From: Luteibacter sp. dw_328
Lineage (GTDB): Bacteria > Pseudomonadota > Gammaproteobacteria > Xanthomonadales > Rhodanobacteraceae
Assembly (NCBI RefSeq): GCF_018449605.1
Contig: NZ_JAAVUW010000010.1
Location: 1 to 64,000, forward strand
DNA: 64,000 nucleotides
Reading direction: 5' to 3'
Positions 22,415-26,597 of the stretch are shown in pieces. Below the pieces are notes generated by a model, which worked only from the letters and a program-made list of their open reading frames with translations, had not been told where the DNA came from and did no database searches. The position numbers and the translations under genes were made by a program. Each line of letters starts with the position of its first letter. The stretch's first letter is position 1.

Positions 22415-23839
22415 TCAGAGCGTGATCGGTACGCGCACCGTGATCGTCGTATCTGGCGTATCGCGGGTGACACCAACGCCCAGCGTCACGTTCAAGGTCT
22501 CTTTTTCATTGAAACGATACGAACCGCCGATCAACAGCGAACCCAGGGTCACACGCGCCGATCCCGGCAACGGATCACCGTTCTGCTGCGTGCGACCGAC
22601 GAATGCCTGGTCGTAACCGATGCTGATGGATGCCTTTTCGTTGAGCGAAAGGCCCATGCCCAGGCTGATATCGGCAATGTCGCCCGCCTTGATGTCCCCG
22701 AGAAACTGCTTGCCGGCGAGCAATACGTTACGACTTACGTTCTTGCGTTCGAAGTTGTGCAGATAGCTGAGATTGCCGAAGAACACGACCGGATCCGAGG
22801 GATACAACCAGGTCACGCCTGCCTGCGCCGAATAGAAGCCCGTGCCCGTGGGGCTTTGCAGGGGCAAGCCGGTGCCGGTGAAGTTCTCTACGCAACGGGT
22901 CACGCAATCACTGGTGACCTCGAACGGATCGCGACCGGTGCGCGATTTTGCGCGGAACCAGCCAACGTAGTACGGCTTGTCCGCGCCACCATCGTTGAGC
23001 TGATAGCGCAACGTGGCTTCGACATCGCCGATACCCTTGCCACTGGTGGTGAACAGGTTGTCCTGCGCGGTGCCGGTGAATATCTCGCGACTGATCGTAT
23101 CGGTGTGGGTATCGACATACGGCACGCGCACTTCGAGTTCCATGCGATTGGTCAGGCCATAACGGAACGCCAGGGCACCGGTCTGCGTCGTCGTCTTCAC
23201 CTGGCGTACGTCGACCAGGCCGATCAGGATGGCCGGAATCACCGTGTAGCCGACGAGCGCCACGCGGTCGCTCGACGAATAGCCGTACTGATACGAGGGT
23301 TCGATGATGAGCTTGCCCTTGGGCGTGAGCACGCCGGGCTGGTCGAAGATCGGCGCGACTTCCGGCGGGCGGTCGTCTTCCGCGGGTCGCCTGCCGACCG
23401 GCCTCGTCGCGACCACGGGCTGCGAGGCCTGTGCAGGCGGCGCTCCCGGAACAGGCGCACCCGGCTGCTGGTCCTGCGGGGCTTGCTGGTCCTGCGGCGC
23501 CGACTGCGTGCCCGCGACGGCCGCCGAGCCACCACGCGCCTCCTCCAGCGCATTCATGCCGATGGCCTTGCGCAGGTCGTTGTACTGCACTTCCTGCGAT
23601 GCGAGCTCGCGCTTCATCTGCTCGAGTTCGGCGAGTTGTTCCGCCATCTTGCTGCGCATCGCATCGATACGTCGCCCCTGCGCCTCGATCTTCTCGCGCA
23701 GTGCCGGATCGACCGTGCTGCTACTGCTGCTCGCGCTGGCCTCCTGCGCCAGGCACGCTCCGATCCACATCGGAAGCGTCGCCAACGCAAGAGCACCCGC
23801 ACACGTTTTTGCCTGCATCACCCTGCCGTTGCGATACAT
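22415..23839 (-). CDS. Fap-type outer-membrane exporter (FapF-like), coiled coil plus barrel
   Basis: A 474-residue protein. It has a signal peptide ending near CLAQ (residue 32), then a coiled coil at about residues 43-95 (REKIEAQGRRIDAMRSKMAE, then LAELEQMKRELASQ), a Pro/Gln/Ala linker (about 105-165, PQDQQAPQDQQPGAPVPG), and a barrel domain ending TTITVRVPITL. This is the layout of FapF of Pseudomonas, a trimeric barrel gated by an N-terminal coiled coil that exports amyloid subunits. It is last in the five-gene operon and 2 bp after the previous stop, the position FapF holds after FapD-FapE. ATG 23839 follows GGGGGA; ATG 23818 is an alternative. Confidence 0.68.
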   Translation of the reverse strand: MYRNGRVMQAKTCAGALALATLPMWIGACLAQEASASSSSSTVDPALREKIEAQGRRIDAMRSKMAEQLAELEQMKRELASQEVQYNDLRKAIGMNALEEARGGSAAVAGTQSAPQDQQAPQDQQPGAPVPGAPPAQASQPVVATRPVGRRPAEDDRPPEVAPIFDQPGVLTPKGKLIIEPSYQYGYSSSDRVALVGYTVIPAILIGLVDVRQVKTTTQTGALAFRYGLTNRMELEVRVPYVDTHTDTISREIFTGTAQDNLFTTSGKGIGDVEATLRYQLNDGGADKPYYVGWFRAKSRTGRDPFEVTSDCVTRCVENFTGTGLPLQSPTGTGFYSAQAGVTWLYPSDPVVFFGNLSYLHNFERKNVSRNVLLAGKQFLGDIKAGDIADISLGMGLSLNEKASISIGYDQAFVGRTQQNGDPLPGSARVTLGSLLIGGSYRFNEKETLNVTLGVGVTRDTPDTTITVRVPITL

Positions 23840-23841
23840 GC

Positions 23842-24429
23842 TTAATTCCCCCGGAACTGGACCACCGCGTCGTTGACTGCTTCCGAAATCCGCATGTTCT
23901 GAAGCATGCGTGCCGAGTTCACCGACGCGTCGATCGTGGTGGTGGCCGTGATGGCCTGGTTGTCTAGCGTGTTCTGGATGATCAGGCCGGGCGTGACGGA
24001 AGCGGGCAGATTGATCGCCGCAGATGCCGCCGCCGGTGCCTGCGCGCTCATGGCCGGCACCGACGCCGCGGACTGCGCCGTCGCGCTGGCCTGTGCCGCG
24101 TTACTGGTCTGCGGAGTGCTCACCGCGCTGCTGCCCACATTGATCACGGTGGTCTGCAGGGCACTTTGCAACTGCGCCGCCTGTTGGGCTGTGATGTTGG
24201 CGATGTTGGGTACCGAGACCGTGGTCTGCATCGCCTCCATGCCATTGATAAGCACCGTGCGCTGCAGCGCGAAGGAGGCAACGAGGTTGTCGCCGAAGTC
24301 GAAGCCGCCACGGATCGTGTCCAATGTGGCATCCGGGACCGCGTGGTTGATCGGAAAGTCGGCCGCCTGCGTGGCGGCACAGGCGCCGCTGGCGAATACG
24401 ACGGCGAACAGGATGGGGCGGGTTTTCAT
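23842..24429 (-). CDS. small secreted protein in the FapE position
   Basis: A 195-residue protein with signal peptide MKTRPILFAVVFASGACAAT (cut near QA-ADFP). The mature part has GGFDFGDNLVASFALQRTVL, a long Ala/Ser/Thr/Gln-rich middle, and PGLIIQNTLDNQAITATTTI before the end. The QN and Thr-rich strand pattern resembles curli/Fap-type secreted subunits. Its ATG overlaps the C39 peptidase stop by 4 bp (ATGA), and the barrel exporter follows. By order it corresponds to FapE (minor fibre component in Pseudomonas), but sequence similarity was not tested. Confidence 0.55.
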   Translation of the reverse strand: MKTRPILFAVVFASGACAATQAADFPINHAVPDATLDTIRGGFDFGDNLVASFALQRTVLINGMEAMQTTVSVPNIANITAQQAAQLQSALQTTVINVGSSAVSTPQTSNAAQASATAQSAASVPAMSAQAPAAASAAINLPASVTPGLIIQNTLDNQAITATTTIDASVNSARMLQNMRISEAVNDAVVQFRGN

Positions 24430-25564: not shown

Positions 25565-26497
25565 TTACGGAGCGCCGCCCACGCTGAGGTTGGCCTGGAC
25601 GTTCACACCCTGCTGAATCAACGACGCCGCGCCACTGTTCTGCGCGAAGTTGCTGATGCCGGCTGCGCCCGCACCTGCACCACTCAAGCTGTTCGACATG
25701 TTGAAGTCACCGGCGTTGACGTTGTTGGAGCCGCCGTTGCCGCCGGTACCGCCGCTTGCGCCATTGCCGTTGCCGCCCGTGCCGCTACCGCCGGCCGCAC
25801 CCGCTCCGCCTGCGCCGCCCGATGCAAGGGCTTCACCGCCCGCTCCGCCGGTAGCTGCACCGCCAGTCGCCGTCGCGGTCGCATCACCAGACGTGCCTGC
25901 GCCGCCCGCGCTTGCGCTTGAGCCGCCCGTCCCGGCCGGTGAGCCACCCGTCGCCGTTCCGCCACCGGCACCGCGCTGACGTGCGTTGCCGCCGTCGCCC
26001 GACGCGTCACCACCGTTACCGTGCGCGCTGCCACCGGCCGATGCAGTCAGCGAGCCGGCGCTGCCGCTGTCGGAGGAGCCGTCGCCACCGACAGCGCCAC
26101 GAGCACGCGCGTTGCCACCATCACCGCCGGAGCCGCCGCGTCCGCCCGACCCTTTGGCGCCATAGCCGTCACCGCCCGATCCGCCTTTGCCGCCATTGGC
26201 GTTGCCCCAGTTCGAGGCGACATTTCCGTTACCGGAGGTCGTGACACCGCTGACCGTTCCGTTCAGTACACCGTTAGCGATGGCGTTCGTGGTGTTGAAC
26301 GATCCGGATGTCGTGTTGGTGGTCATATTCGAATGCGTCGAGCTGTCCGAGTATGTCGAGCTGTCTGAGTACTGCACGGCAATCGATTTACGTTGGGCCG
26401 ATGCGCCTGACGATCCCGTCTGGGTATCGTCGGCCATGGCCGGCAGTGCGAATCCGATAGCGAGGCAGATCGCCGTGGCGATAAGAGTCTTACGCAT
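25565..26497 (-). CDS. Gly-rich secreted protein, probable fibre subunit of the Fap-like operon
   Basis: A 310-residue protein with signal peptide MRKTLIATAICLAIGFALPA (cut after AMA, residue 22). A Ser/Thr/Tyr stretch with a direct repeat YSDSSTYSDSSTHSN (about 43-57) is followed by a Thr/Asn segment, a Gly/Ser/Ala/Asn-rich low-complexity region (about 101-270), and a C-terminal ISNFAQNSGAASLIQQGVNV motif. There is no cysteine in the mature part. Low complexity and the shared C-terminal motif suggest an extracellular fibre or matrix protein. It is first in the operon; ATG 26497 follows AGGAGA and a sigma-54 element lies about 85 bp upstream. Function is inferred from context. Confidence 0.65.
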   Translation of the reverse strand: MRKTLIATAICLAIGFALPAMADDTQTGSSGASAQRKSIAVQYSDSSTYSDSSTHSNMTTNTTSGSFNTTNAIANGVLNGTVSGVTTSGNGNVASNWGNANGGKGGSGGDGYGAKGSGGRGGSGGDGGNARARGAVGGDGSSDSGSAGSLTASAGGSAHGNGGDASGDGGNARQRGAGGGTATGGSPAGTGGSSASAGGAGTSGDATATATGGAATGGAGGEALASGGAGGAGAAGGSGTGGNGNGASGGTGGNGGSNNVNAGDFNMSNSLSGAGAGAAGISNFAQNSGAASLIQQGVNVQANLSVGGAP

Positions 26498-26581
26498 GGG
26501 AGAGTCTCCTGTGAGCGACGCGAAACCCCTGTTTCTGCGGGAAAGCCGGACGCCCTGCCAACGTTCCGGGTCATAGGAGAG

Positions 26582-26597
26582 AGCAAGTTGCGTGCCC
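26582..26597 (-). promoter_or_regulatory. sigma-54 (RpoN) promoter of the Fap-like operon
   Basis: Read on the minus strand: GGGCACGCAACTTGCT. This fits the -24/-12 consensus TGGCACG-N4-TTGCW, with GG and GC separated by exactly 10 bases. Transcription would start near 26571, about 73 bases before the Gly-rich gene. An enhancer-binding activator would be required; none is encoded in the window. Confidence 0.6.

Follow-up and report, generated by a model that had tools for sequence, protein, structure and literature searches.

The operon considered here occupies positions 26497-22415 on the minus strand of a 64,000-nucleotide stretch of DNA from the soil bacterium Luteibacter sp. dw_328 (the start of contig NZ_JAAVUW010000010.1), which is referred to below as the window. 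By open reading frame (ORF) analysis it comprises five closely packed genes in a single order, encoding a Gly-rich secreted protein, a short secreted protein, a periplasmic C39 peptidase, a secreted protein in the FapE position and a FapF-like pore. Two of these products, the short and the E-position protein, carry a double-glycine leader shortly behind their Sec signal peptide. From the sequence we infer export, fibre formation and an amyloid character, and the operon probably represents a Fap-like system for the export of a surface fibre, with a lineage of its own. More broadly, periplasmic C39 peptidases like FapD, FilB and that of the window would share a substrate code, a bacteriocin-type leader behind the Sec signal, whereby amyloid and pilus subunits that have been carried by Sec are matured by the protease before they reach the pore. 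The exporters would be modular, with a constant peptidase, pore and set of leader-bearing helpers and a low-complexity fibre gene that is swapped; we give this reading a probability of about two in three. That FapE is a target of FapD is an idea already known and is not new. What is new is a likely exact cut site, which is plain on two different proteins beside one peptidase and also fits the genuine FapE. Matching leaders on two partner proteins would make the cut site of the peptidase directly testable.

The first leader, TPVDQLKDMSGG (25310..25345, minus strand, as are all features of the operon), spans residues 43-54 of the short protein (25106..25471; 121 amino acids), which is Asn/Thr-rich and has a FapB/FapE-like C-terminal module. 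The predicted cut falls before Thr55 (LKDMSGG↓T). The second leader, VPDATLDTIRGG (24304..24339), spans residues 31-42 of the protein in the FapE position (23842..24429; 195 amino acids, with an IQN(S/T) motif in the C-terminal third), and here cleavage is predicted before Phe43 (LDTIRGG↓F). The peptides TPVDQLKDMSGGTNTT and VPDATLDTIRGGFDFG are candidate substrates for the peptidase. An identical five-gene order is found in 28 loci, the window counted, which come from the 30 genomes with a close pore match, G007 and G023 having been left out on account of their short contigs; throughout, signal peptides (by hydrophobicity) and the genes outside the window were called by a simple scoring made for the analysis rather than by a trained predictor. 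A Leu at -7 together with Gly-Gly at -2/-1 is present in all 28 loci, in the short and the E-position protein each. Within alignments of 18 sequences, the E-position protein is invariant up to residue 51 at Met1, Leu36, Arg40, Gly41 and Gly42 alone, and invariance in the short protein begins with Leu48, Gly53 and Gly54. The pattern L....GG is seen in every one of the best 120 of 2393 short-family proteins, where the -4 residue is M, L, I, V, A, F, Q, Y or T in 109 and Ser in 11.

The leader also emerges as the top match when the E-like profile is compared by hhalign with the short profile (probability 91, E 1.1e-6; reverse 76, 2.3e-5), a comparison that was made without the motif in mind. Because that run also gave signal peptides alone a probability as high as 71 (Gly-rich protein against FapF), only the E-like/short comparison is unaided by the signal peptide. 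The classical C39 leader consensus is LSxxELxxIxGG and, on sequence, the two leaders are the classical C39 layout moved behind a Sec signal. We infer that the periplasmic C39 peptidases of the FapD/FilB/window family cut the leader. A C39 domain and a leader of the double-glycine type are likewise features of the PCAT transporters (LahT, PCAT1 and ComA), from which the window differs in having a standalone peptidase with a Sec-type signal, a leader that stands behind a Sec signal and an operon without an ABC transporter.

The peptidase (24426..25109; 227 amino acids, GTG start, Sec-type signal) had been predicted to contain the catalytic residues Cys57, His141 and Asp157; all three are present, and neither they nor Gln51 vary among the 25 peptidases aligned. 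The C39 domain is recognised by PF03412 (E 1.2e-20) and in PDB 6mpz (E 2.1e-9). By profile the protein is a homologue of FapD (136.7 bits, E 6.9e-40) that stays below the NCBI FapD cut-off of 330 bits and is by that model no equivalog, and it also matches FilB (E 1.1e-37, 129.9 bits against a 475-bit cut-off). The last gene encodes an outer-membrane barrel of 474 amino acids (22415..23839) with an N-terminal coiled coil, the latter judged by eye from an N-terminal alignment. This protein is a homologue of FapF (NF058560, 144.4 bits, E 4.2e-42; PDB 5o67, the solved FapF, E 1.3e-26), scoring beneath the NCBI FapF equivalog cut-off of 700 bits, and matches FilC more weakly (E 7.8e-11, 41.9 bits against a 630-bit cut-off). 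Profile comparison of the barrel with FapF and of the peptidase with FapD had been set beforehand as a check on the original prediction of a Fap-type exporter, and both proved similar, with no refutation.

The conserved catalytic residues bear on the question of whether the leader is cut at all. It could instead be a docking or retention sequence that binds the C39 protein, acting as a chaperone, or the coiled coil of the pore. Catalytically inactive C39-like domains that serve purely for binding exist in some type I systems (passages of PMC5557850, PMC5135000 and PMC6173800), and the non-Gly residue at -1 in FapE and FilA is odd for cleavage. The invariance of Cys, His, Asp and Gln51 (25/25) argues against such a dock, as does the report, in a passage of PMC5557850, that a Cys mutant of FapD abolishes the secretion of FapC, and an uncut leader is considered quite unlikely. 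A further alternative is that the main target of the peptidase is the pore, where a cut at an RGG in the linker would open or close the channel. The window pore has ALEEARGG at residues 97-104, in the linker between the coiled coil and the barrel, and is one of 18 among the 28 window-type pores with the motif L..xRG[GA]; the FapF of locus L191 also has an RGG in the linker region, and processing of FapF is proposed in a passage of PMC5557850. The motif is missing from the other 10 of the 28 pores, whereas the leaders are found in 28 of 28, and no [RK]G[GTASRKQ] occurs in the linkers of the seven FapF proteins from fapABCDEF-type loci of relatives. The pore as main target is ranked lower because of these two linker counts (18/28 and 0/7), and is held to be unlikely.

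Cleavage of the leaders would fit into a simple sequence of events. A sigma-54 promoter would switch the operon on, a hairpin after the first gene would keep the message of that gene abundant, and Sec would carry all products over the inner membrane. The periplasmic C39 peptidase would remove the leader, from the short protein at SGG↓T and from the FapE-position protein at RGG↓F, and these two proteins and the leaderless Gly-rich protein would exit via the FapF-like pore. Outside, the Gly-rich protein would make up the bulk of the fibre and be held there through its C-terminal QNSG module; the short protein would act as a FapB-like nucleator and the E-position protein as an initiator or anchor.

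The leader rule would extend to FapE and the FilA-like proteins in the form of L or M at -7, a usually hydrophobic residue at -4 and G at -2. FapE, which is the sole Fap protein with a missing N-terminus according to a passage of PMC5557850, typically has the variant LxxxRG[RK], and a genuine FapE (L191, 345 bits, above the 250-bit cut-off) reads LNDQELASLRGR↓Y. The variant LxxxTGQ is found in 7 of 7 retrieved FilA-like proteins, of which that of L206 (DUF6160, reading LDDAALADVTGQ) is the one confirmed by profile. At substrate positions, the pattern [LMF]....G[GRKQ] occurs in 13/13 short, 12/12 E-like, 21/21 FapE and 7/7 FilA-like proteins retrieved, sets that represent protein families and not independent events. 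Among neighbours not proposed as substrates it occurs in 2 of 22 FapC proteins and in none of nine products of the Fil-type gene after the peptidase. These counts come from peptidase loci that had no part in the training set of 28; of the 47 fetched, 45 were used, L212 and L216 being dropped. No ORF was retrieved for the short protein at one locus, for the E-like protein at two, for FapE at one and for the FilA-like protein at two, and where several ORFs fitted, the one with most motif matches was chosen, at test and control positions alike.

A number of observations weigh against so general a rule. The usual residues at a C39 cut site are GG, GA or GS, unlike FapE, which carries R or K at -1, and the FilA-like proteins, which carry Q there, so that both lack the Gly. 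By chance the strict pattern [LM]..[ILVMA].G[GAS] appears in 3 of 69 signal-bearing proteins outside the operons, and the looser [LM]..[ILVMA].G. in 11 of the 69; the other genes of the window yield one strict chance match among 16 signal-bearing genes (53021-53512). A position-specific scoring matrix of the window-type leader is too narrow: it scores 10 of 42 loci higher than every one of 73 controls, or 24 of 42 if the highest-scoring control, which is a second E-like copy in L200, is set aside (5 of 47 loci had been dropped as their peptidase gene was not called). From the named-locus set 12 of 80 were dropped, nine with the peptidase gene not called and three without a match. In all six Cupriavidus E proteins examined the site is retained but lies within residues 132-197, a long way from the signal peptide. 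Across eight further distant loci, the short protein has the Gly at -2 in L228, L229, L230 and L232 and has lost it in L231, L233, L234 (RAK) and L235 (RAR); of the eight E-position proteins, six have a clear leader, that of L231 has none and that of L234 was not retrieved. Moreover, a passage of PMC5557850 describes mass spectrometry of FapE in which peptides from the first ~70 residues are lacking, and this gap is larger than what a cut at residue ~39 removes, a problem for the general leader rule. FapD is also said to modify FapC, no site being given in the relevant passage of PMC10638192.

In earlier work, a 2018 paper described FapD as having an undetermined substrate (a passage of PMC6173800), and in late 2025 processing of the FapE N-terminus and of FapF was merely 'thought' to occur (a passage of PMC12822426). 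Passages of PMC3792158 describe Fap in Xanthomonadales (Rhodanobacter and Stenotrophomonas) and FapD and FapF as known members of larger families; five additional phyla were already reported to contain fapD-fapF pairs (a passage of PMC6173800). Among the titles, abstracts and passages of the literature searched, nothing was found that describes the present operon type or a C39 leader in FapE.

The original prediction had taken the operon for a Fap system with its fibre gene replaced. Instead it appears to be a separate system, which coexists with a fapABCDEF-type locus in genomes G024, G029 and G037; this second locus type, with the A-B-C-D-E-F layout, is carried by seven relatives. In a tree of 88 peptidases, with an arbitrary root and a program warning of several long branches meeting, the window-type sequences lie within a 46-row clade (100/99) that is nested in a 65-row side (100/98), and this side includes Fil-type and other loci and zero rows grouped as Fap. 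The operon is regarded as separate because both locus types share a genome three times and the peptidase groups apart. A canonical Fap member that had merely diverged would be in keeping with the D-E-F order and with the FapF and FapD homology, and the curated cut-offs are unsharp, given that four proteins scored from the fapABCDEF-type loci that relatives carry (the FapE proteins of L059 and L060, FapC of L060 and FapB of L062) also fall below their own, so that the sub-cut-off scores of the window proteins are not decisive. Nevertheless, no window protein matches the NCBIfam profiles of FapA, FapB or FapC, both systems occur side by side in one genome, and the supported branch parts the window peptidase from the Fap rows and places it with FilB-type and other non-Fap rows; simple divergence is thus very improbable.

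A system of separate lineage nonetheless has much in common with the Fap system of Pseudomonas (fapABCDEF), including the coiled-coil FapF-type pore, the FapD-type periplasmic C39 peptidase, the D-E-F order, the leader in the E-position protein and a link to sigma-54 (a promoter here and an rpoN mutant in a passage of PMC8202526). It differs in lacking FapA and a detectable Fap-repeat FapB or FapC, in its Gly-rich first gene, in a second leader-bearing subunit upstream of the peptidase and in the separate grouping of the latter. Fap-repeat FapB/FapC models of NCBIfam match neither the Gly-rich nor the short protein of the window, and none of the Gly-rich, E-position and short proteins has a convincing match in Pfam or NCBIfam. 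The short protein of the relative L058 does approach the FapB model (E 3.7e-4, 20 bits; cut-off 190 bits), and FapB likeness is hence detectable in the short protein but not in the Gly-rich protein. The equation of the E-slot protein with FapE holds in part: it is like canonical FapE over the signal peptide and leader (hhalign probability 94, E 1.7e-7, confined to residues 1-56) and has no NCBIfam match. With the Fil pilus (FilA/FilB/FilC) the window shares the matches of its peptidase to FilB and of its barrel to FilC, and the FilA-like proteins have their LxxxTGQ leader; in contrast, the subunits are unrelated in sequence, with zero matches to the FilA subunit (DUF6160) among the window proteins in Pfam and NCBIfam, and the window scores lie far under the curated cut-offs. 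Proteins in the FapA position of L059, L063, L187, L195, L202 and L204 have a similar leader-like stretch deeper in the protein, for example ELSDGDFASVASG and ISDKNLQKVTGR, and on sequence FapA may be a further FapD target.

The window adds a widespread, uncharacterised exporter family with a Gly-rich fibre subunit. Of the 61 genomes in the search, 36 have a pore match at E <= 0.001, counting that of the window; 30 of these are of the window type, four have a fapABCDEF-type locus alone (G027, G033, G048 and G057), and the remaining two matches (E 2.7e-4 and 7.8e-4) are probably due to chance. Luteibacter has the window-type system in 22 of 23 genomes, and the window genome has a single copy of the operon. 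A genome collection holds 213 places encoding a relative of the system, the best 80 of which belong to Luteibacter, Dyella, Rhodanobacter, Frateuria, Fulvimonas, Pinirhizobacter, Lysobacter, Pseudoxanthomonas, Luteimonas, Cupriavidus, Ralstonia and a few uncultured bins. In L200 the peptidase operon occurs twice in tandem, with near-identical helpers and separate first genes.

The Gly-rich protein (25565..26497; 310 amino acids, 28% Gly) is encoded in all 28 window-type loci and is proposed to be the major fibre subunit. It consists of a Sec signal, a conserved N block, a Gly-rich middle and a conserved C-terminal AQNSG..SLIQQ block, and has no double-glycine leader. The C-terminal QNSG module (25568..25726) is partly common to the short protein, the best hhalign match between the two lying in this block (probability 49, E 1.7e-4; reverse 36, 3.8e-4), and a strict regular expression for it is matched in 24 of 28 loci. 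No Pfam or NCBIfam match to the protein was obtained, and a homology search with its C-terminus returned nine proteins and nothing informative on function. Fap repeats were sought and rejected, the best hhalign matches to the FapB and FapC profiles being signal-peptide residues. The products might rather form a soluble or capsule-like Gly-rich surface layer or adhesin, exported in Fap-like manner and not amyloid, for which the lack of detectable Fap repeats and the low-complexity middle, where glycines recur every third residue only weakly more often than expected (1.25-fold in the window protein), can be cited. A fibre is favoured instead by the conservation of the C-terminal module, which resembles the one in the FapB-like short protein, and by the hairpin, which suggests an abundant product; the surface layer is seen as possible though somewhat doubtful. 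Across related peptidase loci, most first genes retain the start M.KTL.A.A and an AQNSG..SL.QQ-like C-terminal block (missing in L183 and L184) around a variable middle, which is Gly-rich in Xanthomonadales and Cupriavidus-type loci and Asn/Ser/Asp-rich in several others. These sequences suggest a fixed export cassette in which the fibre body is swapped.

Expression of the operon is likely to involve the sigma-54-type promoter GGCACGCAACTTGCT (26582..26596), which stands 85-99 nt upstream of the first gene. Every one of the 21 Luteibacter loci has a perfect promoter of this type 97-119 nt 5' of the first gene, as do 23 of the 28 window-type loci. The sequence GGCACGNNNNTTGCT has a single exact match within the window, at the promoter site, and the background rate over the loci, promoter matches included, is 0.075 matches per kb and strand. 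A passage of PMC8202526 reports that fap of P. fluorescens is lowered in an rpoN mutant. The pattern is present in just 12 of 59 named loci, which counts against the model. No sigma-70 promoter was detected (1.1 expected). Further upstream, an alignment of 15 Luteibacter loci shows blocks conserved in most of them, at 26662-26702 and ~26763-26782, which contain GCGTTACGGCGTGTATC...TTACA and the palindrome TTCAAACGATCGTTCGAA and, from sequence, could be activator sites.

An intercistronic hairpin of 11 bp (25511..25537) follows the Gly-rich gene. All 28 loci have a hairpin of 10-15 bp, with G-U pairs allowed, in the spacer that separates the Gly-rich gene from the short gene; 22 different 5' stems are represented, and shuffles of each spacer match the hairpin in 0/300 cases in 25 loci and 2/300 in three. 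In 20 alignable stems (8 of the 28 hairpins being dropped), pairing is broken in 0 of 212 cells and both partners have changed in 8 of 11 pairs, counts that are biased towards structure as the stems were picked for pairing. A REP-like repeat was rejected as an explanation, the stem pattern occurring once in the 5.05-Mb genome, and so was an intrinsic terminator, none being called at this site on the operon strand; Rfam yields nothing at gathering score within 20500-27500. Since the hairpin is unique in the genome and has no U tract, it would be a message-stabilising 3' end for the abundant product of the first gene, although the absent U tract also counts against the model.

The genes themselves are arranged as had been claimed, all five in the same direction and with 4-bp overlaps at two joints. 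The short/C39 joint has this overlap in 22 of 28 loci and a 1-bp overlap in six; the C39/E joint has it in 21 and a gap of 4-11 bp in the other seven. The predicted extent of 22415..26597 contains the right gene set and reaches ~100 bp too far upstream, the Gly-rich ORF beginning at 26497. Directly downstream of the pore gene is a gene for a small OMP_b-brl outer-membrane protein (21418..22272, minus strand), a candidate member of the operon, present at this place in all 21 Luteibacter loci and unseen in the other genera read. Because terminator-like sites (21310-21363) follow this gene and none is called between it and the pore gene, it may be co-transcribed with the operon. The operon lies inside a propionate (methylcitrate) cluster, with prpD at 18352-19803, prpC at 29468-30622 and prpB at 30635-31534, all three of which (window 18352-31534) score above the curated cut-offs, and similar-looking neighbours are seen by eye in several relatives from other genera.

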